Positions 240 to 33,281 of a stretch of DNA of 33,281 nt are shown here, one piece after another (position 1 is the first letter of the stretch; each line of letters opens with the position of its first letter). The stretch is from NCBI GenBank assembly GCA_012520795.1, contig JAAYNP010000051.1, positions 1 through 33,281 on the forward strand, given 5' to 3'. The stretch is from Bacillota bacterium (GTDB taxonomy: Bacteria > Bacillota > Limnochordia > Darwinibacteriales > DTU012). The notes below the pieces were generated by a model. That model saw only the letters and a list, made by a program, of their open reading frames with translations. It had not been told where the DNA came from and ran no database searches. A program made the translations under genes and the position numbers.

Positions 240-261
240 ATATGTAACCAAATCAAATATG

Positions 262-377
262 ACCTTTAATCCAATCCCGTGAGGTTGGGAAGGACGTCTA
301 TGAGAGCAGGATAGCTGTATCTCTTCCGCTGTAGCCATCTTTAGGCTTCTACCAATCTGGGGTAGAAGCCTTTTTTT
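262..377 (+). promoter_or_regulatory. PyrR-binding site and transcription attenuator of the pyr operon
   Basis: Bases 263-293 match the conserved pyr leader element: CCTTTAATCC at the start, the loop core CCCGTGAGGTTG, and GGGAAGG at the end. This is the hairpin that PyrR binds in Bacillus-type pyr operons. It is followed by an intrinsic terminator with 11-bp arms at 343-353 and 361-371, a 7-base loop and a T run at 371-377. By the known mechanism, UMP-loaded PyrR stabilises the hairpin, prevents the antiterminator and ends transcription before pyrB. Only one attenuator is visible, whereas B. subtilis has three. Confidence 0.9.
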
Positions 378-415
378 GCCTCAAGCGTCTGGGGTCTTGA
401 ACTGGAGGGGATCAA

Positions 416-2561: not shown

Positions 2562-2653
2562 GAGGCCTGCCAGAATACTGCCGTGGCTTACCTTAAGGTT
2601 GTCGAGGATCAGCCGCTCCGATTGGAACCACTGTCGTTTCGGGAGGCATGACA

Positions 2654-3415
2654 ATGCTGCTTACAGTCACTGACACAGCCCGGATTGCTCATGGTATCTG
2701 GCAGCTGACATTAACCGGCACATTTCCATATGATACTGTGCAGCCGGGGCAGTTCTTAATGATCCGGATTGGTGCCGGTTTGGAACATGTCTTACGGCGC
2801 CCGGTAAGTATTGCCGCAGTTACTGAAGACAGCCTGGCCATTGTATTCCGGGTGGTGGGCAAGGGGACACAATGGTTGAGCGAGCGGAAAGCCGGTGATG
2901 GGCTGGACGTGCTGGGCCCTTTGGGGACAGGCTTTCCCCTGCCGCCTGCAAAAGCGAGAGTATTGATTGTAGGCGGTGGCATTGGCGCTCCGCCGCTGTA
3001 TTTCCTTGCAGAGAGAGTGCAGCCCTTATCCGATAGACTGGATGTGGCGCTTGGTTTTCAGACGCAGGCCGACTCTTTTTGGGTTGATCGATTTGCTGTT
3101 CTCGGCAATCTGAAATTGGCCACCGATGATGGCTCCTTGGGATTGAAGGGGACAGTGATCGATGCCGTTGAGTCGCTGGCAGCCGATGGCCTTAAGTGGG
3201 ATTATGTGTATGCATGCGGGCCAATCCCGATGTTAAAGGTAGTCAAGCAGTGTTTTGCCAGTCAAGAAGTGCAGGGGTATGTATCCCTGGAAGAGCGGAT
3301 GGCCTGCGGAGTGGGTGCCTGTTACGGCTGTGTTTGCCAAACCGGCGGCGGTTCGGGAACAAGGCGGGTTTGTGCCGATGGCCCGGTTTTTGACTGGAAC
3401 GGGGTGGTGTTATGA
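2654..3415 (+). CDS. pyrK: dihydroorotate dehydrogenase B, electron-transfer subunit
   Basis: Flavin and iron-sulphur subunit that passes electrons from PyrD to NAD+. It belongs to the ferredoxin-reductase family. The FAD motif RRPVSI is at residues 48-53 and the Gly-rich nucleotide-binding segment [12 protein letters not shown] at about 103-114. A C-terminal [2Fe-2S] site is formed by Cys218, 223, 226 and 240, with an additional Cys228. An ATG at 2648 is also in frame but lies only one base from the GGGAGG at 2641-2646. ATG 2654 is seven bases from it and gives 253 residues, so I prefer it. The last four bases overlap pyrD. Confidence 0.95.
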
Positions 3416-4326
3416 GTGTTCCCGACCTGAGCGTTGAAATCGCCGGCCTGCACTTGAGGAACCCGGTGATGCCGGCATCCGGCTGCTTTGGTTTCGGGCG
3501 TGAATATGCCCGGTTCTATCCGCTCAACCAATTGGGGGCAGTTGTCACCAAGGCTGTAACGCTTGAACCGAGGCTGGGCAACCCGACTCCCCGGGTGGCT
3601 GAGGCCGGCGGGGGGATGCTGAATGCCATTGGGCTTGCCAACCCGGGGGTCAGGCATGTGGCAGCGGTTGAGCTGCCGTGGCTGGCCAAGCAGGGTGTTC
3701 CGGTGATTGTGAACGCAGCGGGGCAGACCAAGGATGAATATGTGGAGGTAGTGCGGATTATCTCCGCTTCCGGTTTGGCGAACGCCGTTGAGCTCAATGT
3801 TTCCTGCCCGAATGTGAAAGCCGGCGGGATCAGTTTCGGCGTCAGCCCACAGGTTTTGGAGGATCTGGTCTGTTCGGTGCGAAAGGTGTGCTCCTTGCCG
3901 CTTTTTGTCAAGCTTTCCCCAAATGTCACCGATATCCGGCAGATTGCCCTGGCGGCCCAGGCAGGGGGCGCGGACGGGTTGACATTGATCAATACCTTGA
4001 TTGGCATGCAGATTGATATCCGGCGGCGGCGCCCCGTTTTGGCCAACAAGACTGGAGGGCTCTCAGGCCCTGCGGTAAAACCGGTGGCAGTGCGGATGGT
4101 GTATGAGGTGACGCAGGTAGTGGGTATCCCGGTTATTGGCATGGGCGGGATTTATTCCGGTGAAGATGCCGTTGAGTTTATCATGGCAGGGGCTAGTGCC
4201 GTGATGGTTGGCACTGCAAATTTCACAGACCCCTTTGCCTGCCCCAGGATCATTGCTGAAATCGCTCAGTTTATGCAGGAGCATGGCATAGGGAGTTTGG
4301 CTGAAATCCGGGGGTGTATAGCTTGA
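3412..4326 (+). CDS. pyrD: dihydroorotate dehydrogenase B, catalytic subunit
   Basis: FMN enzyme that oxidises dihydroorotate to orotate. It is class 1B and works as a heterotetramer with PyrK, encoded directly upstream. The 304 residues form a TIM barrel. The signature [11 protein letters not shown] at about 129-139 carries the catalytic Cys132, and Lys47 in the TKAVT segment is the usual flavin contact. The C-terminal phosphate-binding segment includes [11 protein letters not shown]. The ATG overlaps the pyrK stop (ATGA at 3412-3415), so the two subunits are probably made in equal amounts. The stop overlaps the pyrF start. Confidence 0.97.
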
Positions 4327-5018
4327 AAACTGAAGAAAGAATTATTGTGGCATTGGATTTCCCGGCAAAAGACGAGGTTTTCCAGCTGTTGGACAGGGTT
4401 CCGGGACTGGCTTATGTCAAAGTGGGGATGGAGCTTTTTTACAGCGAGGGGCCGAACCTTGTTTCTATGCTCAAGGATCGGGGATTAAAGGTTTTTGTGG
4501 ACCTGAAGATTCATGACATCCCCAGTACTGCCTACAAAACGATCAAGGTTCTTGGCAGGTTGGGATGTGATATGGTAGATGTACACTGTGCCGGCGGCCT
4601 GGAAATGATGCTTAAGGCGCGGGATGCCTTGATTGGTGATACGAAGCTGATCGGAGTAACCCAGTTGACTTCCATTGATCAGCAGTTAATGAACAACCAA
4701 CTGTGGATTCGCGGTTCCCTGGAGGATTGTGTCCTGCATTATGCAGCCTTGGCCAAAGAGGCTCGTCTCCACGGGGTCGTCTGTTCCCCACGGGAAGCAG
4801 CGATGATCAAAAAACATCTGGGTAAAGGTTTCCTGGCGGTCACCCCCGGAGTGCGGCCGCCGGGCAGTACGGCTGGAGATCAGAGGCGGATGATGACACC
4901 GGGGGAAGCAATCAAGGCGGGTAGCGACTATTTGGTGATCGGCCGCCCAATAACAGCAAGCCCTGATCCAAAACTTGCGTTCGCACAAATCCTGGCGGAA
5001 ATCGAGGTGGTAGCATGA
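4323..5018 (+). CDS. pyrF: orotidine 5'-phosphate decarboxylase
   Basis: Decarboxylates OMP to UMP, the last step of the pathway. The family signature VDLKIHDIP is at residues 59-67, with catalytic Asp60, Lys62 and Asp65. The C-terminal phosphate loop (TPGVRPPG and LVIGRPIT) is present. I start it at TTG 4323, which overlaps the pyrD stop as TTGA and is eight bases from GGGGG at 4310-4314. This gives 231 residues beginning with a short segment before IIVALDFP, as in relatives. GTG 4314 would add three residues but lies within the GGGGG and so lacks a usable ribosome binding site. The stop overlaps pyrE. Confidence 0.95.
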
Positions 5019-5587
5019 CTGGGCAAGAACTGCTGGCCAAGTTCCGAGAGCTTGGGGCTCTAAAAACAGGCCATTTTCAACTCACATCCGGGCTGCACTC
5101 GGGCCAGTACATGCAGTGTGCCGCAATTTTTGAGTATCCCAAAGCTGCCTCGGAAATCATAAAGCTCTTAATTCCGAAGCTGCCGCAGGACATTGATACG
5201 GTAATCGCCCCGGCAATAGGGGGCATAAATCTAGGCTATGAGGTGGCCCGGGCGCTGCAGTGCCGTTTTGTGTTCACCGAGCGAGAACAGGGGAAAATGG
5301 CTTTGCGCCGCGGTTTTACCCTGACTGCGGGCGAGAAAGTGTTGGTTGTGGAAGATGTGGTCACAACCGGCGGTTCAGTCAGAGAAGTGATTGAGATTGC
5401 CCGCTGCCACGGCTGTCTTGTCCAGGTAGTGGCCTGCCTTGTGGACCGCAGCCAGGGCAAGGTGGATTTCCCGGCCCCGTTTATTCCACTGATGCGGATG
5501 GAGATTGAAACTTTCCAGCCGGATCAGTGTCCTTTGTGCGCAGCCAATCTGCCGATAACGAAACCGGGGAGCAGAACTGTCAAGTAA
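5015..5587 (+). CDS. pyrE: orotate phosphoribosyltransferase
   Basis: Transfers ribose 5-phosphate from PRPP to orotate, giving OMP for PyrF. The 190-residue protein carries the PRPP-binding motif VLVVEDVVTTGGSV at residues 109-122, with Glu113 and Asp114. The N-terminal segment LTSGLHSGQYM contacts orotate. A CPLC pair close to the C-terminus is seen in many related clostridial-type PyrE proteins; its role is unknown to me. The ATG overlaps the pyrF stop (ATGA at 5015-5018). It is the last gene of the operon, with a terminator directly after it. Confidence 0.96.
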   Translation: MTGQELLAKFRELGALKTGHFQLTSGLHSGQYMQCAAIFEYPKAASEIIKLLIPKLPQDIDTVIAPAIGGINLGYEVARALQCRFVFTEREQGKMALRRGFTLTAGEKVLVVEDVVTTGGSVREVIEIARCHGCLVQVVACLVDRSQGKVDFPAPFIPLMRMEIETFQPDQCPLCAANLPITKPGSRTVK

Positions 5588-5588
5588 C

Positions 5589-5609
5589 AGCGGCTGACAG
5601 CCGCTTTTT
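5589..5609 (+). terminator. terminator of the pyr operon
   Basis: AGCGGCT at 5589-5595 pairs with AGCCGCT at 5599-5605 around a GAC loop, followed by a run of five T. It starts two bases after the pyrE stop. Confidence 0.85.
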
Positions 5610-5811
5610 ACTTTCGCTTCGATCCTCAGTACTTACCTCCAGTTTGATCATATCCGCGAATAGATTCCCAGCGAACGCAGGAAGTTCTTGCATTACCTGG
5701 AAATCAGTCTTTAGGCTGAAACCATATCTAGCTTCAGGCTGTTGTTGGCAGCCGGTGTTCAGGTATACTCAATGTAGGAGAACCTTTTCGTATCGAACGG
5801 AGGTAGGAACG
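5610..5811. other. intergenic region upstream of the first ABC exporter pair
   Basis: About 200 bases between the pyr terminator and the first exporter gene. The frame of the exporter stays open through most of it, but there is no ribosome binding site before 5799. A possible promoter is TTGTTG at 5742-5747, a 16-base spacer, and TATACT at 5764-5769; the -35 match is weak. I see no RNA gene and no credible small gene here. Confidence 0.5.
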
Positions 5812-7605
5812 ATGCAGATCGAAGCCCGCAAATATGGTCTTCTTGATTTGATCAAAATCCCAATTCAAGCGGCTCCCGCGGCCGCTATCCTTGTAGGCCT
5901 GCATTCGATTTTGGCCGGAATCATTCCCACCATTCATGTATTGGTCACTGCAGACTTTATTGATACCGCGATTGGTATCCTGCAGGGGAGCCTTGCCCGA
6001 AGTGAAATATACAGCTCATTGTTCGCAGTAGTCGTTTTGATTGCCTACAGCTGGGTGGCCGCCGCTTTGGCAAACCTAATCAATGTAAAGTTTGATCTGG
6101 GATTACAGAGGCATTATCACACAGCAGTAATGGAGAAACGGGCGCGGCTTCATTACCGCCATATTGAAAACCCTGAAACCTGGGACTTGATCTCGCGGGT
6201 GACAAGCCGGCCCGAAGCGCAGCTGACCGGCGGCTATCGCCTCCTAATCTCTGCGGCGGCAGAGATCTTGAGGATCATGGGAGTCCTTGGGATCTTAATC
6301 TCACAGGTATGGTGGGCCGCTCTGGCAATTCTGTCGTTTTCAGTCCCATTGTTTGCCCTGGCGGTAAAAAGCGGTAAAGCCAGCTATGAGGCGAGCAAGG
6401 AAACGGCGAAATACAAGCGCAAGAGCTATTATCTTGCCGATGTTTTAACCAGCAGGGAAACTGTGGATGAACGAACCCTTTTCGGCTACAGCGATCAAAT
6501 AAACGAGCTGTGGCACGAGCGGTATGAGACAGCCCGCAGAATTGAACATCAAGTCATAAAGAAATGGTTTGTACGGTCGAAGGCAAGCGGAGTAATAACT
6601 GCTTTGATATCGGTCTTGATTGTGGTGGTGCTGCTTAACCCAGTTTTAACCGGAGCTTTGTCGGTTGGCTTGTTTATCTCCTTGGTAGGAGCAACATTCA
6701 ACCTTGTGCAAATGATGTCCTGGCAGCTAACGTCATATGCTGATCAACTGGCAAAACACCGCGAATATCTCAGGGATCTCACGGAGTTTGCCATGCTGGA
6801 AGAGGCTGACTCTGCCCAGATGGTGCCTGCTGAAAGCGTGCCCCAGTTTAGATCCTTGGAATTTTTCAATGTAAGTTTCAAATACCCGGGAACAGACAAA
6901 TATGTACTGAAGAACCTGTCTTTCAGAATGGAAGCCGGTAAGCACTATGCCTTTGCCGGGGTTAATGGTTCAGGCAAAACCACGATTACAAAGCTAATTG
7001 CCGGGCTTTACGACAATTACACCGGTGAGATACTGCTAAACGGCAAAAGCATCCGGGAGTGGCACCCGTCCGAACTGAAAGCGATGCTGAGCATTGTCTA
7101 TCAGGATTTTGCCAAATACTACATCACAGTGAGAGATAATATTGCCCTCGGGGATGTAAATGCAATATACAGCCGCGAAGATTGGCAGATCAACCGTGCT
7201 ATAAGCCAGACAGGCTTGAGCGCAGCAGTGGAAAAACTGCCCCAGGGCATTCAGACTCCCCTTGGCAAGATCAAGCCTGATGGGTACGACATATCCGGCG
7301 GCGAGTGGCAGCGGATTGCCATGGCGCGGGCGATTGTCAATCCAGCACCCTTAAGGATTTTGGATGAGCCTACGGCTGCCCTTGATCCAATCAGTGAGAG
7401 TGAATTATACCAGGAATTTGAACGGATCAGCCGCGGCAAAACAACCATTTTTATCAGCCACCGGCTTGGCTCAACCAAACTGGCTGATGAAATATTTGTC
7501 ATCGGCGACGGCAGGGTTTTGGAACATGGGACTCATCAGGAGTTGATGGCGTTGGACGGAGTATATGCCGAGATGTATGAAAGCCAAAGGAGTTGGTACA
7601 ATTGA
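5812..7605 (+). CDS. ABC exporter half-transporter, first pair, subunit A
   Basis: Membrane ATPase of the exporter type, with the transmembrane domain fused to the ATPase domain (597 residues). Six hydrophobic segments fall in about residues 20-310. In the ATPase domain Walker A GVNGSGKTT is at 383-391, the Q-loop Gln at 431, the signature ISGGEWQ at 494-500, Walker B ends in Asp518-Glu519, and the H-loop His is 550. All catalytic residues are intact. The start is ATG 5812, eight bases after GGAGG at 5799-5803. It overlaps the next gene as TTGA, so the two probably form a heterodimer. The C-terminal YAEMYESQRSWYN tail recurs in all four exporters here. The substrate is unknown; no lantibiotic or peptidase domain is present. 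Confidence 0.9.
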   Translation: MQIEARKYGLLDLIKIPIQAAPAAAILVGLHSILAGIIPTIHVLVTADFIDTAIGILQGSLARSEIYSSLFAVVVLIAYSWVAAALANLINVKFDLGLQRHYHTAVMEKRARLHYRHIENPETWDLISRVTSRPEAQLTGGYRLLISAAAEILRIMGVLGILISQVWWAALAILSFSVPLFALAVKSGKASYEASKETAKYKRKSYYLADVLTSRETVDERTLFGYSDQINELWHERYETARRIEHQVIKKWFVRSKASGVITALISVLIVVVLLNPVLTGALSVGLFISLVGATFNLVQMMSWQLTSYADQLAKHREYLRDLTEFAMLEEADSAQMVPAESVPQFRSLEFFNVSFKYPGTDKYVLKNLSFRMEAGKHYAFAGVNGSGKTTITKLIAGLYDNYTGEILLNGKSIREWHPSELKAMLSIVYQDFAKYYITVRDNIALGDVNAIYSREDWQINRAISQTGLSAAVEKLPQGIQTPLGKIKPDGYDISGGEWQRIAMARAIVNPAPLRILDEPTAALDPISESELYQEFERISRGKTTIFISHRLGSTKLADEIFVIGDGRVLEHGTHQELMALDGVYAEMYESQRSWYN

Positions 7606-9377
7606 AAAACCAGATCTCGCTGCATAAAATCGTCTGGCGGATCCTCAAGATGGTGATGGCAGCCTGCCCCTTGTATTTTTCGGCTGTATGCCTGATCGGA
7701 GTCATCCACGGCTTGTCCTGGGGATTGAATACTTATGCAATGCAGTTCTTTTTTGACTCTGTGGCTTCGGCTGTAACCGGCCAAGGCAGGCTTACTGTGG
7801 TCTATTGGGGTTTGGCTGCATTGGGTGCTGTGAGTATCGGCAGCCAGGTGCTCAATGGCATGCACAACTTTATGACCAACACTTTGTATAATCTGGTGCC
7901 GGGGCACCTGGGCAAACATATCCACCGTAAAGCGGCGCGGATTGAGCCGGTTTGCTATGAAACACCGGAACTGCTGGATGATATCAACAAGGCGCAAAAA
8001 GGTGCCGGCAACAGCCTGGGTTTGCTGATAGTTGTCGTTGTCTTGTTTACATTCTATCTTCCGTACTTCGGCTTCATGGCCTGGTACCTGTACCGCTTGA
8101 AGCCGATCTTGATTGTATCACTGGTGTTCATCTTTATCCCTGTGTTCATAACACAGTTAATCAGGGGAGCGGTTCATGCCCGCCTGGAAGATGAGTCGGC
8201 GCCGCTTCGCCGTGAAGTTGACTATTATGAAAAATGCATATGTGATCGGGAATACTTCAAAGAAACCAGGCTGCTGGGAGCCTATGGCTTTTTCAAACAG
8301 CTGTATTTGACCGCATTAAACGCAATGCAGGAAAAGAAGTGGTCGGTGGAGTTGAAAACCCATTTAATGGAGATAGGCATGAAAATGCTGACGCTGCTGG
8401 GATACTTCGGCGTACTGTACCTGCTGTTTACGGCCTTAATGAACGGAGAGATCAGTATCGGCAGCTTTGCCGCTGTATTTGGTTCCATTGAGCTTATGTT
8501 CAGCATCATGGATGAGATTGTCAGCCACCACATTGGTGGGATGACCAAGGATTTGGGAACTGTCCGGAACTTTATGCGGTTTTTGGATCTTCCTGAGCGT
8601 ACAGGCGAACTGGAACGGGTTTCATTTGAGGGCGGGATGAGATTCCACGATGTGAGTTTTTCCTACCCAGGCAGTGAAACCAAGGCTCTGGATCATGTGA
8701 ATCTCACCATCAAGCCTGGAGAAACGATCGCCATTGTTGGCCAGAATGGGGCAGGCAAATCGACTTTGGTCAAGCTGCTGGTCGGATTGTACCTTCCAAC
8801 AGAAGGGGTTGTTGAAATAGGAGGGGCCGACAGCAGGAAAATCAGCCCTGAATCAATTTACAAAGGGACTACCGGTGTTTTCCAGAAGTATCAGCGCTAT
8901 AAACTTACCCTCCAGGAAAACGTCTGGATTAGTGATCTTGAAGCCCAGGATCAAACCCATCTGGAGACAGCAGTGAAAAAGGCCGATCTTGAGCTGGATC
9001 AGGAAACATTCCCGCAGGGGTATGACACTATGCTGTCCCGGGAGTTTGACGGAGTGGATCTTTCCGGCGGGCAGTGGCAGCGGGTGGCTTTGGCCAGAGG
9101 TTTCTACCGGAGGCATGATCTGATTGTCCTTGACGAGCCGACGGCGGCGATCGATCCCCTGGAGGAAACCAGGATCTATCAGAAATTTGCCGAGCTTTCC
9201 AGAGATAAGACAGCGATAATCGTTACCCACCGGCTTGGATCAGCAAAAATTGCCGACCGGATTGTCGTAATGGATCAAGGCAGAATTGTGGCCGTCGGCA
9301 CTCACGAACAGCTGATGCGGGAACGAGGGAAGTACGCCGAGATGTATCAAGCCCAAGCCCAGTGGTATGCGGGGTAA
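7602..9377 (+). CDS. ABC exporter half-transporter, first pair, subunit B
   Basis: Partner of the preceding gene: 591 residues, six membrane segments in about 20-310, then an ATPase domain. Walker A GQNGAGKST is at 380-388, Q-loop Gln428, signature LSGGQWQ at 487-493, Walker B Asp511-Glu512, and the switch His543. The D-loop reads DEPTAAIDP. The start is TTG 7602, nine bases after AAGGAG at 7587-7592, and it overlaps the upstream TGA. TTG 7593 is in frame but too close to that site. Both nucleotide-binding sites look competent. No terminator is evident after the gene. The substrate cannot be told from sequence. Confidence 0.9.
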   Translation: MKNQISLHKIVWRILKMVMAACPLYFSAVCLIGVIHGLSWGLNTYAMQFFFDSVASAVTGQGRLTVVYWGLAALGAVSIGSQVLNGMHNFMTNTLYNLVPGHLGKHIHRKAARIEPVCYETPELLDDINKAQKGAGNSLGLLIVVVVLFTFYLPYFGFMAWYLYRLKPILIVSLVFIFIPVFITQLIRGAVHARLEDESAPLRREVDYYEKCICDREYFKETRLLGAYGFFKQLYLTALNAMQEKKWSVELKTHLMEIGMKMLTLLGYFGVLYLLFTALMNGEISIGSFAAVFGSIELMFSIMDEIVSHHIGGMTKDLGTVRNFMRFLDLPERTGELERVSFEGGMRFHDVSFSYPGSETKALDHVNLTIKPGETIAIVGQNGAGKSTLVKLLVGLYLPTEGVVEIGGADSRKISPESIYKGTTGVFQKYQRYKLTLQENVWISDLEAQDQTHLETAVKKADLELDQETFPQGYDTMLSREFDGVDLSGGQWQRVALARGFYRRHDLIVLDEPTAAIDPLEETRIYQKFAELSRDKTAIIVTHRLGSAKIADRIVVMDQGRIVAVGTHEQLMRERGKYAEMYQAQAQWYAG

Positions 9378-9424
9378 GCTCTTGACTGCGGGATCCCGAA
9401 CATGGTTTTTGCAGCACGAAATGT

Positions 9425-9495
9425 CGATAGTTGTCAAATGCCGGCACGATATGACAAGAGTATTTTTGTAAAAGATGTTATGATTCATATATAAC
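9425..9495 (+). promoter_or_regulatory. promoter and possible operator of the lipoprotein gene
   Basis: TTGTAA at 9466-9471, an 18-base spacer and TATAAC at 9490-9495 form a fair promoter 45 bases before the start codon. Upstream, TTGTCA at 9431-9436 and TGACAA at 9452-9457 make an inverted pair. The minus strand of 9425-9436 reads TGACAACTATCG, which differs at one base from 11349-11360 in front of the second exporter pair. Confidence 0.45.
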
Positions 9496-9539
9496 TAAGT
9501 CGGCGATGCAATTTTTAAGAATGAATAGGAGGGATCCTA

Positions 9540-10553
9540 GTGCTCAAAAAACACAGAATGATAATCTTGACCCTGGTAGTGTCTGTTCTGTTTTCAGGAT
9601 GCCTAATTAAGGCATCTGTGCCGAACAAACTGGAGATCTCGGCAGAATCCACGAAGGTAGTGCAAGGCAGATCAGTTAACCTGTCAGTTGTAGGCTATGA
9701 TAAAAAGAACAATGAAGTCGCTCTCAAAGAGGTGGAGTGGTCACTTAAGGATGAAGGCAAAGGGACTTTGGAAGCGGATGGCGACCAAGCTGTCTTTACA
9801 GCCGGTGCAATCGCTCTTGGGAAAGTGACGATCGAGGTTACTTCAGGCAAATTGTCGGACAGCATTGAACTCGAGATTATTGAGGTGCCGGCTGGTTCAA
9901 AGGAGGAACTGCAGGGAGCGATTGACGCAGCCAAAGCTCTGAAGGCTGCATATGCAGAAGGTGACGAGCCCGGCCAAATCCCGGCTGATGCCCATGCCGC
10001 CTTCCAGCAGGCAATTGATGCCGCTGAAGCGGTGTATGGCGATGCAGAGGCTACTGGCGAAGAAATCAGCCAGGCCATCGCAGCTTTGGATGAAGCAATG
10101 GAAGTTTTCGAGAGCTCGATCAAAGAAGGGGCTGTTGAGTTAGATCGTACGGGTTGGGTAGCAGGTGCGTCAAACAATGGTTCGCATGCTTACCAGATCT
10201 TTGATGGTGTTGTGGACGAAGATTCAAGGTGGCACGGAAGCAAGCAGGAAAAGGGAAAATGGCTTGAAATAGACATGCGGTCGAATCAGACTTTTAATCT
10301 GATAACCATCCTTGGCCGTTACAGCGATATGCCGCGTGCTTTTGAAATTGTCGTGGCACCGGATGGTGAGTCTCCTGAATACGGTGAACCTGTCTATACC
10401 GGCGGATATGATATACGCGACGGTTTCGGTACTGAAGACATTGAGTTTGAAGAAGCAGTGACAGCACGCTGGATAAGGATTGTTCTAACCGAGGATTGCC
10501 CGGAAGGAAAATACTTTGCAGTAAATGAATTGTGGGTGTATATGAGGTACTAG
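9540..10553 (+). CDS. surface lipoprotein with Ig-like, FIVAR-like and F5/8C domains
   Basis: Predicted lipoprotein of 337 residues. A basic start and a hydrophobic stretch lead to the lipobox LFSGC with Cys21. Residues about 30-118 look like a bacterial Ig-like fold. Residues about 122-197 are an alanine-rich helical segment with the AIDAAKAL...AIAALDEAM pattern typical of FIVAR domains. Residues about 200-337 look like a discoidin (F5/8 type C) carbohydrate-binding domain, with GWVAGASNNG at its start and RWIRIVL near its end. This architecture is usual in extracellular glycan-binding proteins; no catalytic domain is present. The GTG start is six bases after AGGAGGG. It sits between two exporter pairs, has its own promoter and is followed by a terminator, so it is probably transcribed alone. 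Confidence 0.8.
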   Translation: MLKKHRMIILTLVVSVLFSGCLIKASVPNKLEISAESTKVVQGRSVNLSVVGYDKKNNEVALKEVEWSLKDEGKGTLEADGDQAVFTAGAIALGKVTIEVTSGKLSDSIELEIIEVPAGSKEELQGAIDAAKALKAAYAEGDEPGQIPADAHAAFQQAIDAAEAVYGDAEATGEEISQAIAALDEAMEVFESSIKEGAVELDRTGWVAGASNNGSHAYQIFDGVVDEDSRWHGSKQEKGKWLEIDMRSNQTFNLITILGRYSDMPRAFEIVVAPDGESPEYGEPVYTGGYDIRDGFGTEDIEFEEAVTARWIRIVLTEDCPEGKYFAVNELWVYMRY

Positions 10554-10580
10554 TCACATGGCTAAACCCTCTATAGATGG

Positions 10581-10607
10581 CGCCAGGCAGCTTGCCTGGC
10601 GTTTTTT
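10581..10607 (+). terminator. terminator after the lipoprotein gene
   Basis: CGCCAGGCA at 10581-10589 and TGCCTGGCG at 10593-10601 form a perfect 9-bp stem with a GCT loop, followed by six T. It lies 27 bases after the stop codon. Confidence 0.9.
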
Positions 10608-10660
10608 CATCCGCGGGCATTAAAAAAAGGGCGGGGAATCCCGGGGCTGAATCTTACAGC

Positions 10661-11248
10661 GTGATTGGCATATATCGCTATGACGAACATCCTCATTCCG
10701 ATGTTGCCTTGATCAGTGTGGGCCATTATCTTGCCGCTACCAGCGAAACCAGCATCCGGCTGGACAGTCTCATTGATCCGCCGTTCTTTTCACATTATTC
10801 AAGTTCGGGCATTCATCCAAGGGCTTTACTTGGAATGCCCGACAAGGTTTCATTCGCCGTCGAAGCCCATACGGGATCAGGGCTGACCATAAGTTCGAAC
10901 GAAGTGCGGAATCTGTTTGACAGGCCGATCACTGCGGGTATTGTCTGCTTTAAACAGAGAGAGCTGAGGCCGGAAGAAGAGCTGATTCTTGAACACAGAT
11001 ACGATGAAGCCTTCGAGCTTCTGCAGCAAAGATTGGCCGAAGCTCCCAACGATCTGGATGCTCTTTGGCTGCTGGCGCGCTTTTACTACTGCGACACCAG
11101 GCCTTTGGATGAAAGCCGCGGCTACGCCCACCAGGATTTGGGTAGGTGCCTGGAAACACTGGAGAAAATCGCGGCGGTTGATCCGGGCCCCAAAGTGGCC
11201 AACGCTATTGCGATAGTCCAAGAACTGCTGGAGTGGTACGGGGATTGA
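10661..11248 (+). CDS. hypothetical protein with TPR-like C-terminal part
   Basis: I do not recognise the N-terminal part. The last 100 residues or so, from LRPEEELILEHRYDEAFELL to the end, are helical and resemble tetratricopeptide repeats (the EHRYDEAFELLQQRLAEAPN and CLETLEKIAAVDPG segments). The frame is open from 10577, but its start there would lie inside the terminator of the previous gene. GTG 10661 is the first start beyond it and gives 195 residues, yet no good ribosome binding site precedes it. The gene may therefore have lost its 5' end. It ends just before another terminator. The coding look of the frame is good, but whether the gene is expressed is uncertain. Confidence 0.5.
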   Translation: MIGIYRYDEHPHSDVALISVGHYLAATSETSIRLDSLIDPPFFSHYSSSGIHPRALLGMPDKVSFAVEAHTGSGLTISSNEVRNLFDRPITAGIVCFKQRELRPEEELILEHRYDEAFELLQQRLAEAPNDLDALWLLARFYYCDTRPLDESRGYAHQDLGRCLETLEKIAAVDPGPKVANAIAIVQELLEWYGD

Positions 11249-11282
11249 GCTCGAGGCGCTGTGCTTGAACCCGCGCGTGACA

Positions 11283-11306
11283 GACGGCCTGATTTGGCCG
11301 TCTTTT
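11283..11306 (+). terminator. terminator after the TPR-like gene
   Basis: GACGGCC at 11283-11289 pairs with GGCCGTC at 11296-11302 around a six-base loop, followed by a T run. Confidence 0.75.
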
Positions 11307-11312
11307 ATTATG

Positions 11313-11400
11313 ACACCGAAATACTGCTGACAGAAAAAGAAGGTGTTCTGTCAACTATCGGTGTAAATTAGAGTTGTCGGGAAAATTTCCACTATATATG
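11313..11400 (+). promoter_or_regulatory. nested inverted repeats in the control region of the second exporter pair
   Basis: ACACCGA (11313-11319) pairs with TCGGTGT (11358-11364), and inside it TGACAGAA (11328-11335) pairs with TTCTGTCA (11346-11353). Downstream, GGAAAATTTCC at 11379-11389 is nearly palindromic and is followed by an AT-rich TATATATG at 11393-11400 that may hold the -10. No good -35 is clear. The element 11349-11360 (TGTCAACTATCG) recurs inverted upstream of the lipoprotein gene. This may be an operator region or an RNA structure; sequence alone cannot decide. Confidence 0.4.
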
Positions 11401-11476
11401 AGAAACATCAACGGCAGCTGATCCAGGGCCGAACGAATTTGATAGGCAGCGGCTGTTGCTCAGGAGGTGTACCATC

Positions 11477-13351
11477 ATGAGCCAAGTGATCACCGAAAAC
11501 AGGATTACCCGGTTATTGAAGCGGCTGAAAATCTTTGATCAATGGGAGGTAGCCAAATGGGCTTACCGGCAAGGTTGGGAAATCGATAAACGTAATTTCA
11601 TCTTTTGGACAGTCCTCAACAGCCTTGGGGCTCTAATACCAGTCTACTTGCTCAAGGTAACGGAGCAAGTGGTTGATACGATCACTATTAACATAGGGGC
11701 CGGCAGCCTATTGGACATTACCTGGCGCGTGGCTGTGTTGAGCTCTTTGTGGATACTGCGCAGTTCATACCATATCATTCCCAACATCATCAGATACACG
11801 ATGCAAACACGTTATTCAATTGCCATGCAGCGTAAATATGCCGTCTGCGTCAACAAAATTCCCTTATGCAAATTTGACGACAAGGATTTTGCGGCTCAAA
11901 TTTCCCACGTAGGCAGCACCTGCAGCCGCCTTGCCTATGTCATTGGTGGGACTTCCACTTTTATCGGTGCCTTTGTGGGAACCGCCGGTCTGTTTTGGTT
12001 AGCCTTTACCACCTCATGGGTTTTACTGGTGATTGGTATTGTATTCTTCATAGTATCCCTTGTTTTAACCGGCAAGATTTATCAACAGCACTACGACTTC
12101 TGGTCGGTCGCCAAGATGGAGCACCGCAAACAGCAGTACTATGCCGGCTTGATTACAGGCCGGGAGACCGGGAAAGAAATCCGGGCGATGAAACTGAGCG
12201 ATTTCTTCCGCAGCCGCTGGCGCTCGCTGGCTGAGAAACTGACCGGGATGAGGTTGGAGCTGGACTTGAAATCCAACCAGATCCGCAACATCTTGAACTT
12301 GATCTATCTTGGATTCAGCATCCTGATCTTGGGCTTGGGAGTGTGGCTCTTGTGGAACGGCCAGATCATGCTGGGTGGTTTGGTCCTGATTTGGCAGCTG
12401 CACAACCAGCTGTTCAACAGTGTCCATACGCTTGCAAGCGAATATCTTTACACCATGAGATACCTGCCTTTCATGGCTGAACAAAAGGAAGTCTTTGAAA
12501 TGGTCTTTGACGAAACCGGCCTTCCTACCCGGGAGCACAAGGAAATCATACCGAAGGATCCGGAGACAATCTTTCACTTGGAAAACGTCACATTTGGTTA
12601 TGTGCCGGAACACACTGTGCTGAAAGATATCAGCCTCACAGTGAAAAAGGGTGAAACGGTTGCCTTGGTGGGCGACAACGGTGCAGGTAAGACCACCTTG
12701 ATCAAACTGCTCCTCGGCCTGTACCCCCCTAGAAAGGGCAAAATCCTCTTTGAAGGCCTGCCCTACGATCAGCTGACACAGGAGTACCTTTACAGCAAGA
12801 TGGGCGTGGTGTTTCAGGATTTTAAGCAATACCACTTCACGATCAGGGAGAACATTGCCTTCGGTGATATCAAACAGATCAACAATGATGAAGTATTGAT
12901 GGAGGCGGCGAGAAAAGGGCAGGCTGACAAGTTCATTCGAGCCCAGAAAAATGGTCTTGATACCTTCCTGGGCCGTGAGTACGAAGAGGACGGCCTGGCA
13001 CTGTCCGGTGGCGAATGGCAGCGGATTGGCGTCTCCCGTGCCCATGTCAGCGATAAGGAGATCCTAATTCTGGACGAGCCGGCGGCTAAGCTGGATCCTG
13101 TCGCCGAAATGGAGCAGTTTGTCCAAATCAAGAACTCACTGCACGGCCGAACAGCAATACTCGTGTCCCACCGCCTGGGTTTTGCCCGCCTGGCTGATAA
13201 AATCATCGTTCTGAAGGATGGTGAACTGGTGGATACCGGAACACATGAGCAGTTGATGAAGGCGAACAGGCACTATGCAGAGATGTTCAAGGCCCAGGCT
13301 GAATGGTACGAAGGGAGAGTGACCGTCAATGACATCCAACAAGCAGATTGA
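11477..13351 (+). CDS. ABC exporter half-transporter, second pair, subunit A
   Basis: Exporter-type ABC protein of 624 residues, with membrane segments in about 42-330 and then the ATPase domain. Walker A GDNGAGKTT is at 399-407, Q-loop Gln447, signature LSGGEWQ at 509-515, Walker B Asp533-Glu534, and His565. The D-loop reads DEPAAKLDP instead of the usual DEPTAALDP, an unusual Thr-Ala-Ala to Ala-Ala-Lys change next to the dimer interface. The start is ATG 11477, eight bases after AGGAGGT at 11462-11468. The end overlaps the next gene by 23 bases. The C-terminus continues about 13 residues past the shared AQAEWYEG tail. The substrate is unknown. Confidence 0.9.
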   Translation: MSQVITENRITRLLKRLKIFDQWEVAKWAYRQGWEIDKRNFIFWTVLNSLGALIPVYLLKVTEQVVDTITINIGAGSLLDITWRVAVLSSLWILRSSYHIIPNIIRYTMQTRYSIAMQRKYAVCVNKIPLCKFDDKDFAAQISHVGSTCSRLAYVIGGTSTFIGAFVGTAGLFWLAFTTSWVLLVIGIVFFIVSLVLTGKIYQQHYDFWSVAKMEHRKQQYYAGLITGRETGKEIRAMKLSDFFRSRWRSLAEKLTGMRLELDLKSNQIRNILNLIYLGFSILILGLGVWLLWNGQIMLGGLVLIWQLHNQLFNSVHTLASEYLYTMRYLPFMAEQKEVFEMVFDETGLPTREHKEIIPKDPETIFHLENVTFGYVPEHTVLKDISLTVKKGETVALVGDNGAGKTTLIKLLLGLYPPRKGKILFEGLPYDQLTQEYLYSKMGVVFQDFKQYHFTIRENIAFGDIKQINNDEVLMEAARKGQADKFIRAQKNGLDTFLGREYEEDGLALSGGEWQRIGVSRAHVSDKEILILDEPAAKLDPVAEMEQFVQIKNSLHGRTAILVSHRLGFARLADKIIVLKDGELVDTGTHEQLMKANRHYAEMFKAQAEWYEGRVTVNDIQQAD

Positions 13352-15149
13352 CCGCGGTAAAGGTGTGGGGATTGCTGGCACCATTGTCACCAGCGGAAAG
13401 CTGCTTTTCCAGGCGTGCCAGTCAAAAGAGATACTGCTGTTGGCCGTTGGGTTGCTGGGATCGCTAATACCTTCAGGCATGCTTTTTCTGCACAAACGGT
13501 TTTTCAATTATGCTGAACAGATTGTTGCCGATCCATCGCAAACGGTCCTTATGGGCATCATTTCCACTCTGGCTCTCTGGAGTGGGCTGATGCTGGTTCA
13601 GTGGGTGATCGGGATCTTGGAAGCTCATGCCGGGAGGTTGGTTAGTGCCAGGATTAACAATTACATGATGGATCGGATGTTGGCCAAAATTGCGTCAATC
13701 CGGTATGAGTATATGGATACTCCGGAAGTCTTTAACAAACTGGAGTGGGTTTCCAATGAACTGCCGGATAGAATCTCAGGTGTAGTATACAGTACGATTG
13801 GTGTGGTCAGCAGTTTCATTACCATGGGGTCGGTAGGAGCGCTGGCGTTAACCGAGGATTGGCGGATCGCCCTGCTTATTCTGGCCGGCGCTGTCCCCGC
13901 CTGCATCTTTATGCAGCTGCAGAATATTGAAGGGTACTACCGGGCTCAGTTGGAAGCGCCGGAAATGAGGCAGCAGTGGTATGTTTTCCGGCTGTTCACC
14001 CGCCGGGACAGTATTAGGGAAATGCGGGTCGGCCAGTACTCAAAATACCTAATGGATAAGTGGGCTGAGTTGTCGTTGAGGCTGCGGGACCATCGCTATA
14101 AATACATCCGCAAATATTACTTTTTCAACCTTTTGTCCAACATCAGCGGCTATGCCACCATCGGCCTTGCGTTGTGGCTAATTTGCCGCCGGATTATGGA
14201 TCCCGAATCCAGTGCAGCAATTGGATCCTTCGTGTTGATCTATGGTGTGGCAAATACCCTCCAGGGTACAATGAAATCGCTGTTTTCAGATATATCAGCA
14301 ATGGCGGCTACCGGCAAGTACCTCAAGGATTACTTCAACCTGCTGCAGTACGACAGTGAGGAACTCCGGGCCGAGGGAAAATCAATACCGAAACATGCCG
14401 ACATTACCTTCGAAAACGTGTGGTTCAGCTACCCAAACACAGACCGGTATGTTTTGCAGGATATTAATGTAACTATCAAACAGGGCGAGAAGATTGCTAT
14501 CGTAGGGGAGAACGGTTCAGGCAAAAGCACATTTGTAGCGCTGCTGTGCGGTTTGTACCGTCCCCAAGAAGGAAAGATCACTATTGCCGAGAAGGAATTG
14601 CCGGAAGTGTTGGGACTGATGCGCCGGGCTACATCTTTCGTGTTTCAGGATTTCGGGCGCTACCAGTTAACCGTTGCCGACAATATCCGGATTGGCAATA
14701 CCTACCGGGAATTACCGGATGGCGAGATTGTTACAGCAGCCAAGCGGGCAGACGCCCATTCTTTCATTCAAGAGATGGAAGAGAAATACGATACCTTTCT
14801 TGGCAATTTGGAAAAAGGGCGCACGGATTTGTCCGGCGGGCAGTGGCAGAAACTGGCCTTTGCCAGGGCTGTAATCCGGCGCGAGGCAAAGGTGATGATT
14901 CTCGACGAGCAGACAGCGGCTTTGGATCCGATCTCAGAGGCAAAATTCTACCGGGAGTTCCGGGAGCTGACCGGTGATCGGACTGCAATCATGATCTCCC
15001 ACCGCTTGGGGGCCACCAAACTGGCCGACCGGATTCTGGTCTTCCACGAAGGCAGGATTGTGGAAGAAGGGACCCACGAGGAGCTGATAAACAAAAACGG
15101 CCTCTATACGCAAATGTATGAAGCTCAGGCTCAGTGGTATACGGCTTGA
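13329..15149 (+). CDS. ABC exporter half-transporter, second pair, subunit B
   Basis: Partner of the preceding gene: 606 residues, six membrane segments in about 35-315. Walker A GENGSGKST is at 393-401, Q-loop Gln440, signature LSGGQWQ at 501-507, Walker B Asp526-Glu527, and His558. The residue after the catalytic Glu is Gln (DEQTAALDP) where nearly all ABC proteins have Pro. The ATG at 13329 lies inside the end of the upstream gene, with a GGGAG about 11 bases before it, so translation is probably coupled. It ends with the tail QAQWYTA. No terminator is visible after it; the next 60 bases lead into the remnant of a regulator. Confidence 0.9.
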   Translation: MTSNKQIDRGKGVGIAGTIVTSGKLLFQACQSKEILLLAVGLLGSLIPSGMLFLHKRFFNYAEQIVADPSQTVLMGIISTLALWSGLMLVQWVIGILEAHAGRLVSARINNYMMDRMLAKIASIRYEYMDTPEVFNKLEWVSNELPDRISGVVYSTIGVVSSFITMGSVGALALTEDWRIALLILAGAVPACIFMQLQNIEGYYRAQLEAPEMRQQWYVFRLFTRRDSIREMRVGQYSKYLMDKWAELSLRLRDHRYKYIRKYYFFNLLSNISGYATIGLALWLICRRIMDPESSAAIGSFVLIYGVANTLQGTMKSLFSDISAMAATGKYLKDYFNLLQYDSEELRAEGKSIPKHADITFENVWFSYPNTDRYVLQDINVTIKQGEKIAIVGENGSGKSTFVALLCGLYRPQEGKITIAEKELPEVLGLMRRATSFVFQDFGRYQLTVADNIRIGNTYRELPDGEIVTAAKRADAHSFIQEMEEKYDTFLGNLEKGRTDLSGGQWQKLAFARAVIRREAKVMILDEQTAALDPISEAKFYREFRELTGDRTAIMISHRLGATKLADRILVFHEGRIVEEGTHEELINKNGLYTQMYEAQAQWYTA

Positions 15150-28120: not shown

Positions 28121-28155
28121 CTTTAGTTTGACAGTGGAAAGGAAGTTTGCCTGCT

Positions 28156-29679
28156 GTGAAACACTATGATTTATTAGCCCAGAGCTATACGATGGGGAAA
28201 ATTCCCAATCATGTCTTTGCTGACATCAGCTTTGATAAGCTGCTTGCCAAGTACCTTGGGGCAAAACAAACGGCAAATATCCTTGCAGTAATCGGACGGC
28301 CCCTTTCAGCAGAGGGGATCAAACTGCGTCAGGAATTGCTTCTCGATCTGGAAAAGGAAGAGGTCGCTGCTTACCTATCCCGCTTAAAACTCATGGTGCA
28401 GGATCTGGAACTAAGCTATAACGCCTATCATCAGCAGGAAAACCCGTTTTATAAACTCACGGCCTTCCTGGACTTTGTCGAAAAATATGCAAGTTTTGTC
28501 GAGACAATCTGTGACCAGGCTTTAAAGGAATCGCTCACCTCCCGCTTGCTGCAGGGCTTTACTGACAGTTTTACGGCACTCACAGAGTCAGCCGATTTCC
28601 AAAGGCTCAAGGGAGAAGCGGCCGATCTGAGAGAAAAACTTAAGTCCATAGGTTCTGTACAAGTGACCGTCAATACGCCGGACGGCGTCCCGATCGCCGC
28701 CGCTCTAAACCGGAAGAAACAGTCTCATCTGGCTGAACAGCTTATGGTTATTGCCGAGAAGTACAGTGAAGGCAGGGGGCATAGGAGAGCATCAAGGCGC
28801 AGAGAACTGAGCATGAGTTTTCTCACCGGCCTGTCCCGTCTCTATCCACAGCTGTTTGCACAGCTTGAACGGTTTCATGAGCAGTACCAGTACCTCCTTG
28901 ACAACAGGCTTTTCGCTTACCGCAATCAGTTTGCTTTTTATCTTGATTTGAGATTGTTCTTCACAGCTGTAGGCAAAGCTGGAATCCCTCTGTGTATGCC
29001 CAAAAATTCTGCTGCAAGACAGACAATCATCAAAGACGCCTACGATGTCACGCTGCTTTTGAAAACCACCTCGGGGATCGTCCCCAACGATATTGAGTTC
29101 AGCGCTGAGAGCGGTTTTTATGTGCTAACAGGGGCCAACAGCGGCGGCAAGACTGCTTATCTGCGCGCTGTTGCTCTGTGCCATATCCTTTTTTGTGCTG
29201 GAGGGTATGTTCCCGCTCGGGAGGCCCAGATTTACCCCTTCACAAAGATTTTTACCCAGTTTCCTGCCGACGAGAGCAGGATCGAGGCCGGCAGGCTCGA
29301 GGATGAACAACGCAAAATTGAAGCGATCGTGGCCGCCGCCGATGACGACACACTTGTTTTGCTTAATGAAACGTTTTCCAGCACCAGTGAAGAACTGTCG
29401 CTGGACCTGTGCAGCGATTTGGTTGCCAGGCTGTGCCAGGCTGGCGCTTACGGGCTTTTCGTTACTCATCACCATCAGCTGCCCGGGCGGGTGGCGCAGC
29501 TTTCCGTCAAGACCAGGATCGGCTTTCTATCCGCAGTTGTTCTCGATGATGCGGCCAAAACACGCACTTATAAAATCAGCCGGCAGAGGCAGGCGACAGG
29601 GTCTTATGCCCAAACCATTCTGGAGAAATACGGGTTGACTTGCTCACAGCTGACAAAGCGGTTATTGGAGGTTCAGTGA
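28156..29679 (+). CDS. MutS-like ATPase, first of a tandem pair
   Basis: Protein of 507 residues with the ATPase domain of MutS (domain V) and a helical region before it. Walker A GANSGGKT is at 326-333 and a switch-type HHH at 438-440. Walker B reads LVLLNETFSSTS (from 400), with Asn404 where MutS has Asp, followed by the catalytic Glu405. The mismatch-binding domain I with its Phe-x-Glu motif is missing, and so is the Smr nuclease domain of MutS2. It is thus unlikely to be a mismatch-repair protein. The start is GTG 28156, about ten bases after AAGGAAG; a TTG at 28147 lies too close to that site. It overlaps the next gene by one base (TGATG). Function unknown. Confidence 0.8.
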   Translation: MKHYDLLAQSYTMGKIPNHVFADISFDKLLAKYLGAKQTANILAVIGRPLSAEGIKLRQELLLDLEKEEVAAYLSRLKLMVQDLELSYNAYHQQENPFYKLTAFLDFVEKYASFVETICDQALKESLTSRLLQGFTDSFTALTESADFQRLKGEAADLREKLKSIGSVQVTVNTPDGVPIAAALNRKKQSHLAEQLMVIAEKYSEGRGHRRASRRRELSMSFLTGLSRLYPQLFAQLERFHEQYQYLLDNRLFAYRNQFAFYLDLRLFFTAVGKAGIPLCMPKNSAARQTIIKDAYDVTLLLKTTSGIVPNDIEFSAESGFYVLTGANSGGKTAYLRAVALCHILFCAGGYVPAREAQIYPFTKIFTQFPADESRIEAGRLEDEQRKIEAIVAAADDDTLVLLNETFSSTSEELSLDLCSDLVARLCQAGAYGLFVTHHHQLPGRVAQLSVKTRIGFLSAVVLDDAAKTRTYKISRQRQATGSYAQTILEKYGLTCSQLTKRLLEVQ

Positions 29680-31220
29680 TGCTCAGTCTTTTGCACAAGT
29701 CTCCCGATTCAAGCCCCAGGCTGGAGTGCCTGAAGGATCTTGCTGTAGACCGGATTTTATCCATCACCTGCCTCACCGGGGATATCTGTGAATATGTGCT
29801 GTCGGTTTTAAACCAGCCGCTGCAGAATGTGGACAACGTGATTTTCCGGCAGGAGATCTGCCGTGATTTTTACAATCACCCTGATCTACTGCAGGAGCTG
29901 ACTCAGGTTTGCAGGGACTATGTGCGTTTGAAAAAAGAATGGGATGAAGCCGGCGCACGCCAGCGGTCAAGAACCAGTGCCATGCAGGCGATCAGCCACA
30001 GCCTGGACATGGTACGGGATACGATATCCGCATTGGAAGTCAACGCCCTGTACTGCGGTAGGATTGCGGCATTTCCTGAGACGCTCCTTGCAGTCTTGAG
30101 CAAATGCAAACTCCAGTCTCGGGGACTGCTGCAGCTGCTCGCTGTGTGTAAAGAAAGGTTGGCGGATCCTGATTATCTCAGGCTGCGGCAGCTTGCTGCT
30201 GAGCTGACCGAAGTTGCCCCCATGATTGGCAAGGGCTGTGATATCTGTGTTGACATTCAGGATTCGCTCCACGCTGGCCAAGCCCATATAGCCCGGATCA
30301 ACACCGGTGCCGTGGAACAAGTGCAGCAATCGCAACCGAGGCTTGCAGCCTTATTTGGCCGCAGCGAAACCCCGGTTGAGGAGGATCAAAGAGTCAAACT
30401 GGAATTGAGCCCTGTTACTCAGCGTGAACTAGTGTCGCTGGTAAACGAAGCCTTGAAGGAGCTGAACTCGGCCTTGGTCTATGCTGCGCAGAGCATATAT
30501 ACAGCTTTCGCCGGCCTTGCGGATGAATTGTGGTTTTATCGGTTCGCCTTGAAACTAAAGCAGGTGTATGAGAAAGAAAAGGTATCCTATTGTTTTCCCA
30601 CAATCAGGCCTGAATCAGATGATGTGTTTGACTGTGAGGCGCTTTATGATTTGTTCCTGCTTGTCCAGGATGCAGACCGAAGGTATCCGGTCCGCAACAT
30701 AGTGCCCAATGACGCCAGATTGGGCAAAACGGTGGCCGGTATGCTTGTGCAGGGGGCAAACGGCAGCGGCAAAACCACGTTTCTCAGATCGATAGGCATT
30801 GCCCAGACCTTGGCCCAGGCAGGGCTGCCGATTCCCAGCCGTTCGGCGGTGATCAGCATGCGGCGCCGCATCCTGACTCAGTTTTCCGGAGAAGAAGCCA
30901 TCAGCGCAGTTGACTCTGCCGGGAGATTTGAAAGCGAAGTTCAGGAAGTAGCCGATATTATTGCCAAGCTGGAACCGCATTCCTTGGTATTGTTCAATGA
31001 AACCTTTCAGACAACGGCCTTTGATGAAGCTGCCGCCGCCATTTACGACATTCTTGATGTCATTTCGCAAGTGAATATCAAGTGGGTTTTTGTCACGCAT
31101 TTAGTGCAGCTTTCAGAGCTGTTTGCCGGATCCAGGAAAAATGTGCTGCTGATCCAGGCCGGAGCGGATATTAGCCAGCGCTATAAGCTTGTGCCATTAC
31201 AGGCGGAGGGAGGTGTGTGA
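29679..31220 (+). CDS. MutS-like ATPase, second of a tandem pair
   Basis: Protein of 513 residues related to the preceding one. A helical region covers about 1-345. Walker A GANGSGKT is at 359-366, Walker B LVLFNETF at 436-443 with Asn440-Glu441, and the switch His is 474 (FVTHLVQL). As in its neighbour, Asp of Walker B is Asn, the mismatch-recognition domain and Smr domain are absent, and the C-terminal helix-turn-helix of MutS is short or missing. The ATG overlaps the upstream stop and follows GGAGG at 29667-29671 by seven bases. Tight coupling and partner-like divergence suggest that the two proteins form a heterodimer. It overlaps the Nudix gene by one base. Confidence 0.8.
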   Translation: MLSLLHKSPDSSPRLECLKDLAVDRILSITCLTGDICEYVLSVLNQPLQNVDNVIFRQEICRDFYNHPDLLQELTQVCRDYVRLKKEWDEAGARQRSRTSAMQAISHSLDMVRDTISALEVNALYCGRIAAFPETLLAVLSKCKLQSRGLLQLLAVCKERLADPDYLRLRQLAAELTEVAPMIGKGCDICVDIQDSLHAGQAHIARINTGAVEQVQQSQPRLAALFGRSETPVEEDQRVKLELSPVTQRELVSLVNEALKELNSALVYAAQSIYTAFAGLADELWFYRFALKLKQVYEKEKVSYCFPTIRPESDDVFDCEALYDLFLLVQDADRRYPVRNIVPNDARLGKTVAGMLVQGANGSGKTTFLRSIGIAQTLAQAGLPIPSRSAVISMRRRILTQFSGEEAISAVDSAGRFESEVQEVADIIAKLEPHSLVLFNETFQTTAFDEAAAAIYDILDVISQVNIKWVFVTHLVQLSELFAGSRKNVLLIQAGADISQRYKLVPLQAEGGV

Positions 31221-32941: not shown

Positions 32942-32980
32942 AAAAAAACGTATGTCCGGCCAATCAATGGCCAGCATACG
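32942..32980 (-). terminator. terminator of the minus-strand transposase fragment
   Basis: On the minus strand CGTATG and GGCC pair with GGCC and CATACG around the loop ATTGATT, with a small internal mismatch, followed by seven T (32948-32942). It would stop transcription coming from the insertion-sequence fragment before the small membrane peptide gene. Confidence 0.65.
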
Positions 32981-33050
32981 CTTGGAGCACTCCTACGAGG
33001 TTAGCTGCCGGGTTAGGGCACCCAAGTTGCCCCTCTTGTGTGGACAAGAT

Positions 33051-33281
33051 TCACCCCAAAGTATGGTTCCCCCCGCTAGGCTTATCGCAATTAGGAGATC
33101 TCGCATTCTTATCACGCCGTTCAATCACAAACCCTTTTTTACTTCTGCGCTTCTTATCTTCGACAATCGCTTGATCCAATAGTTCCAAATAGGCTTTTGT
33201 CATATCCAGAATGAAGTTCTGTGAGATTGGAGTCAGAGTAGTTTGTATCTCTTCCAATGTTAGCACCTTGTCCTGACCAAA
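33051..33281 (-). pseudogene. truncated ISLre2-family transposase (N-terminal part)
   Basis: The minus-strand frame from the window edge, with GTG at 33266, reads through KAYLELLDQAIVEDKKRRSK then KGFVIERRDKNAR. This matches the N-terminal pattern of ISLre2 (UPF0236) transposases, where a helix is followed by Lys/Arg-rich VxERR and then a LLTxFGE strand. After KNAR the frame changes into unrelated sequence and stops at 33051. In the +1 frame RDLLIAISL may continue the homology briefly, so a frameshift followed by a deletion is likely. The central and C-terminal catalytic parts are absent. The element may extend beyond the window on its 5' side. Confidence 0.6.
33051..33281 (-). mobile_element. 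ISLre2-type insertion sequence remnant
   Basis: Carries the truncated transposase described for this interval. Terminal inverted repeats were not identified, so the limits of the element are unknown; sequence up to about 32880 may belong to it. Confidence 0.45.

Follow-up and report, generated by a model that had tools for sequence, protein, structure and literature searches.

The window analyzed here, the whole 33,281-nucleotide stretch of contig JAAYNP010000051.1 from a Bacillota bacterium, carries two adjacent forward-strand genes for MutS-like ATPases. Gene A, encoding the putative first subunit (28156..29679, + strand; 507 aa), has a GTG start and a TGA stop, and gene B, encoding the putative second subunit (29679..31220, + strand; 513 aa), has an ATG start and a TGA stop. 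Both open reading frames were found as initially annotated, and the stop codon of A has one base, position 29679, in common with the start codon of B (TGATG). A Shine-Dalgarno-like sequence, GGAAAGGAAG (AGGAAG; 28136..28145, + strand), is positioned 10 nt 5' of the GTG at 28156; an alternative TTG start of gene A at 28147 lies almost on top of the AGGAAG motif. For gene B, a Shine-Dalgarno-like GGAGG is located within gene A (29667..29671, + strand), 7 nt 5' of the ATG.

Domains, motifs and family assignment of A and B

Based on Pfam, MutS_V alone was clearly matched in both proteins (69 bits for A, 66 bits for B), with a marginal match of B to MutS_III. MutS_I, MutS_II, MutS_IV and Smr were absent from A and B, in agreement with the claim of the initial annotation that the proteins lack the mismatch-binding and Smr domains; a KOW domain and a nuclease domain were not found either. 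Membership in known families was rejected for MutS1 (77 bits for A and 73 for B against an NCBIfam cut-off of 480; domains I and II missing), for MutS2 (60 and 67 bits against a TIGR01069 cut-off of 400; no KOW/Smr C terminus) and for the KamC reactivases (58 and 55 bits against an NF052383 cut-off of 300; KamC motifs DE and S[TSA]F). In a phmmer comparison with PDB chains, A and B aligned to MutS, MSH and MutS2 within the ATPase domain only. AlphaFold2 single-chain models, generated from alignments of relatives, had pLDDT values of 84.9 for A and 84.3 for B, and the best Foldseek matches in the PDB were MutS/MSH proteins across core, lever and ATPase (E 1e-21 for A and 1e-16 for B), with alignments of about 500-600 columns. 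Low-confidence stretches of the models (A 167-215, B 212-240) are placed between the lever helices, at the expected clamp tip. In A, the core/lever and ATPase regions are followed by a C-terminal helical SYA..GL motif; the chain of B stops after the last ATPase strand.

Walker A reads GANSGGKT in A (29131..29154, + strand), with G, N and GGKT invariant in the A5 alignment, and GANGSGKT in B (30753..30776, + strand). As had been pointed out initially, the Walker B motifs have Asn for Asp and keep the Glu: LLNETFSST in A (Asn-Glu at 29365..29370, + strand; Asn codon 29365-29367) and LFNETFQTT in B (30996..31001, + strand; Asn codon 30996-30998). E. coli MutS D693N (PDB 3K0S), in which this natural change was made artificially, was among the top Foldseek matches of A. 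An additional feature, beyond those noted before, is the trans signature, which is S-T-F in MutS and aligns with G-R-L in A (29290..29298, + strand; G379 and L381 conserved) and with G-R-F in B (30921..30929, + strand). The D-loop His, at the position of MutS His728, aligns within VTHHHQ of A (29467..29469, + strand) and VTHLVQ of B (31098..31100, + strand). Both proteins retain an intact Walker A Lys, Glu and D-loop His, so that A and B look ATPase-competent rather than dead.

With a core and ATPase fold, Walker A, the catalytic Glu and the His, A and B are ATPases of the MutS superfamily. Within it, they are members of a subfamily that we define here as NE-MutS by a monophyletic ATPase domain, an N-E Walker B and a G[RK][LF] signature. 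A 99% branch splits this clade from MutS1, MutS2 and TM-MutS. The sequences thus lend good support to placing A and B in a large NE-MutS subfamily that stands apart from MutS1, MutS2 and KamC.

Conservation of the Asn-Glu motif and of the gene pair

The Asn is present as well in orthologues from four more genomes of the window's genus, from a second genus and in Clostridia proteins, and is thus no chance event or sequencing artefact. In a first set, Walker B was N-E in 168 of 177 rows from related loci, the D-E rows being MutS1, MutS2, one TM-MutS and one single-gene lineage of the NE-MutS subfamily. In a second set, from Clostridia, it was N-E in 30/31 A-like and 28/28 readable B proteins, and the sole A-like exception, L258, is without a B partner. 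One of the two patterns of the wider search contained LLNE, which may have favoured single-gene loci with N. The counts of N in the fluoride-type pairs described below are not affected by this pattern, because their first genes (ILNE, IMNE) escape the LLNE pattern and their second genes entered as neighbours; the later Clostridia profile search was free of an LLNE-type pattern. All readable paired copies have NE in Walker B and G-[R/K] in place of the MutS 'ST', the signature being G-R-L or G-R-F in A and B and, for most relatives, G-K-L or G-K-F.

It had been asked whether close homologues have a normal Asp. None of the readable paired copies does, but some single-gene members do, namely a paralogue within the genus (G000:C48; LLDEALSST, L045 9462-11114, - strand) with its orthologues, and L258 (LMDEPFSST, 5736-7331); these Asp-bearing members form one lineage (99/98). 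The Asn change is therefore real and conserved, but not peculiar to the locus, as it characterizes a large subfamily, with single-gene members among them. Taken together, the alignments support the view that the Asn is a conserved feature and not a loss. Residues 693-696 in Walker B of MutS hold Mg2+-bound water, and their replacement abolishes ATPase activity and repair (PMC3848065). An Asn-Glu motif would thus be expected to harm MutS1, yet it is conserved in A and B, and by analogy a different metal coordination in these proteins is plausible.

Within the window's genus and a neighbouring one, A and B stay side by side (G001, G002, G004 and G007), and in G003 the contig stops directly after A. 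In 394 genomes belonging to the same order as a rumen Clostridia relative, a search revealed many window-type A genes. At 30 of the 31 Clostridia loci fetched (gut or rumen), B came after A in the same orientation, with overlaps typically of a few bases, so that the two genes are not apart in most genomes, a possibility that had been raised. The A and B proteins form separate clades (support 99/92 and 100/99, respectively) with parallel branching, and their distance matrices are correlated (r = 0.74, permutation p = 0.0002), to which shared species history contributes. MutS heterodimers are known in eukaryotes (MSH2-MSH6, MSH4-MSH5). Bacterial MutS proteins have been described as homodimers (PMC12292046). 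From the adjacency and usual overlap of the genes in essentially every relative, together with separate clades and mirrored trees, we infer that A and B probably constitute an obligate heterodimer, as the initial annotation had proposed. However, gene adjacency and mirror trees could also result from shared inheritance, and the single-gene branch of the NE-MutS subfamily shows that pairing is not universal.

No neighbour was universally conserved with the window-type pair, and there was no repair gene among its conserved neighbours. The suggestion that a Nudix gene stays with the pair did not hold up: the gene was found in the window only, and no Nudix motif was detected by regular expression near the pair in other genomes; at L055, a divergent MutT-like open reading frame is 2.2 kb off the pair and not adjacent. 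A GH106-like glycosidase gene upstream of A is present in most genomes of the genus; it is not a functional partner, because G002 and G007 are without it. Anti-phage defence was also considered and rejected, with PADLOC giving only weak P-loop matches.

Directly 5' of A, and often overlapping it, G007, L105, L117 and 8-11 of the 31 Clostridia loci have a gene for a single-TM protein of about 190-250 aa, in which a hydrophobic N-terminal helix is followed by basic residues and for which there was no Pfam match (L105 6898-7464, L117 4780-5346 and L055 10599-11183; also L232, L235, L236, L238, L246, L247, L251 and L254). As a constant third component this protein was rejected, since genomes of the window genus do not have it next to the pair and G000 yielded no copy. 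Its soluble part has a conserved D..ET...(A/S)VK pattern which recalls a degenerate PD-(D/E)xK nuclease fold, and soluble paralogues are present at L197 and L198.

Elsewhere in the window, positions 259-5587 comprise a PyrR-binding site and then a pyrimidine biosynthesis operon, after which there are four ABC exporter genes (5527-15149). A c-di-AMP riboswitch (RF00379, 79 bits) at 32974-33107 (- strand) has no convincing same-strand gene directly downstream; this riboswitch also occurs close to the pair at L048, L051 and L054.

Sister pairs at fluoride riboswitches

The wider search identified relatives in Chloroflexi, Proteobacteria, Actinobacteria, Acidobacteria, Bacillota and archaea, mostly as coupled pairs of a sister type. 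In this type, the first protein, A' (about 510 aa), has lost the D-loop His (VTF), and the second, B', is about 500 aa long (LFNESFAATNER). A' and B' form clades of their own (100/100 each), separate from A and B, and their genes overlap by 4 bp in 47/65 junctions. The Rfam fluoride riboswitch RF01734 was present at curated score at 14 of the 17 sister loci tested. Using a model, R2, built from the Rfam hits at sister loci, we found a riboswitch at 50/64 fluoride-type loci, by comparison to 0/32 single-gene, window-type and third-type loci (Fisher p about 1e-14, with loci counted without kinship correction); at 39 of these 50 fluoride-type loci, the riboswitch precedes the first gene by 700 bases or fewer. 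Genes for enolase, CrcB, CLC, PPase or DUF190 were near 20/64 fluoride-type loci and 0/30 others, and Na+/H+ exchangers also recur beside these pairs. The sister type is thus linked to fluoride.

Mobilizable or conjugative plasmids of Klebsiella and Enterobacter carry fluoride-type pairs (L273 8466-11521; L274 5977-9032) in a riboswitch-antiporter-UspA-MutS-MutS run that adjoins crcB-gpmA-eno-uspA-ppaC, with a gene of the voltage-gated chloride channel family also nearby. In the plasmid annotations, the pair goes under 'DNA mismatch repair protein MutS' or is called hypothetical; the antiporter is a cation antiporter. The region extends the known E. cloacae FRM fluoride operon. Two side observations concern other loci. 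Near fluoride-type pairs, complex I/hydrogenase-like subunits and GTPases of the dynamin family are encountered repeatedly, the largest clusters comprising 6 and 7 loci (for example, L119 2090-6610 and L123 3-5249). A third NE-MutS pair type (MLNESFSSV/LMNESFSSTN; L106 1721-5106, L050 8441-10759, L059 9546-10421) is given no firm place by the trees.

Earlier work on the crcB motif had listed 'DNA repair (mutS)' among the associated genes (Weinberg et al. 2010, PMC2864571). Because sister pairs occur together with the fluoride riboswitch at most of their loci, the mutS of the crcB regulon is identified here as the sister NE-MutS pair. No paper combining 'fluoride riboswitch' and 'MutS' was found in the literature searched.

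By contrast, there was no fluoride riboswitch at the window pair, in any genome of its genus or at 30 Clostridia window-type loci, the single weak match being at L258, a locus that lacks B. CrcB and CLC were not found in the window genome. We therefore rejected membership of the window pair in the fluoride type, given separate clades, no riboswitch and no fluoride-type neighbours. As the window type has neither a riboswitch nor a universal neighbour, the fluoride role of the sister type may not carry over to it.

Proposed mechanism, alternatives and known systems

We propose, with a probability of roughly 60%, that A and B form an obligate heterodimeric MutS-type ATPase clamp which does not act in mismatch repair but remodels a non-mismatch client. 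A core/lever arm and a single ATPase domain would come from each chain, with the paired ATPase domains building two composite sites in the manner of MutS/MSH dimers. With Asn replacing the Mg2+-holding Asp, and Gly-Arg replacing the signature Ser-Thr in trans, in both chains, looser binding of Mg-ATP and a cycle unlike that of MutS would be expected. By opening and closing its arms with ATP, the dimer could then grip and remodel or reactivate the client, as MutS2 does with ribosomes. The client of the sister pair type would be needed under fluoride stress, and that of the window type probably lies close to the membrane in many Clostridia. We infer heterodimer formation, altered Mg2+ use and client remodelling from these features. 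That mismatch repair is probably not the role of the pair, as the initial annotation had suspected, is indicated by its sister pair type being a fluoride-riboswitch gene.

Clearly less probable is that A-B processes DNA structures, clamping branched or damaged DNA like MutS2 or MSH4-MSH5 and regulating recombination or repair, with the sister type mending DNA under fluoride. The fold matches are indeed DNA clamps of the MutS/MSH type, Weinberg et al. 2010 took the crcB-associated gene as a DNA repair mutS (PMC2864571), and MSH4-MSH5 offers a precedent for a heterodimer outside mismatch repair (PMC12292046). However, A and B have no nuclease, Smr or mismatch domain, the window type lacks a conserved repair-gene neighbour, and the other genes of the fluoride islands encode exporters and fluoride-sensitive metabolic enzymes, none of them recognized as DNA repair. 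Considerably more doubtful is fluoride protection in the window organism as well, in which the pair would shield Mg-dependent enzymes or reactivate Mg-F-blocked ones without a riboswitch. The missing riboswitches and fluoride-type neighbours, and the separation of A/B from A'/B' in clades whose joint origin is not settled by the tree, argue against such a role, although NE subfamily and coupled-pair architecture are the same as in riboswitch-controlled pairs, riboswitches control only a minority of fluoride exporters (PMC11139923), and a genome without CrcB and CLC would need another means of dealing with fluoride. Finally, Pfam recognizes only domain V, as might be expected of a MutS1 or MutS2 duplicate that lost its domains in one strain and is drifting. 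This reading is extremely improbable and is refuted by conservation: P-loop, Glu and His are intact and tightly conserved across dozens of genomes, the NE clade stands apart from MutS1 and MutS2, and the window genome encodes its own MutS1 and its own MutS2.

NE-MutS genes are present in hundreds of genomes, and those seen in annotated records bear the name 'DNA mismatch repair protein MutS' or are called hypothetical. As a separate MutS subfamily they are mostly found as tightly coupled pairs, in contrast to the homodimers described for bacterial MutS. The old puzzle of a fluoride sensor controlling a mismatch-repair gene turns into a testable question, namely why a MutS-shaped clamp whose Walker B has Asn is required for fluoride resistance, and the window pair, as a non-fluoride branch of the same machine, is a natural comparison for the fluoride type. 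A broader view, which we regard as rather unlikely, is that prokaryotes hold a large unrecognized class of obligate heterodimeric NE MutS-like machines, with an ATPase whose Mg2+ site is weakened, that protect or reactivate metabolic enzymes and do not repair DNA, the fluoride branch freeing enolase or pyrophosphatase from Mg-F and the window branch serving another client.

By comparison to known systems, the fluoride-riboswitch 'mutS' of Weinberg et al. 2010 resembles A/B in being a coupled pair of about 500 aa each, with NE twice, G[KR][LF]..E and no mismatch domain, but differs from the window pair in its clades (A'/B'), in the loss of the first-gene His (VTF for VTH) and in its association with the riboswitch and enolase/CrcB/CLC/PPase. 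KamC, the ATPase that reactivates lysine 5,6-aminomutase (NF052383), is likewise a MutS-like ATPase that stands alone and is about 500 aa long, to which NCBIfam assigns enzyme reactivation, not DNA repair; its Walker B is DE, however, and its signature S[TSA]F. MutS2 shares with A/B the absence of mismatch-binding and connector domains and a core/lever plus ATPase of about 490 aa, and its non-repair role in ribosome rescue is a precedent for a non-DNA client (PMC12292046). Unlike MutS2, A/B are without coiled coil, KOW and Smr, have NE instead of DE and GR instead of ST, and are encoded by two genes, whereas MutS2 is a homodimer. MutS1/MSH proteins, finally, are dimeric ATPases with composite sites, as we propose for A/B, which differ from them in their NE Walker B and in being without recognized domains I, II and IV; among the MSH proteins, MSH4-MSH5 is a MutS heterodimer that functions without mismatch repair (PMC12292046).
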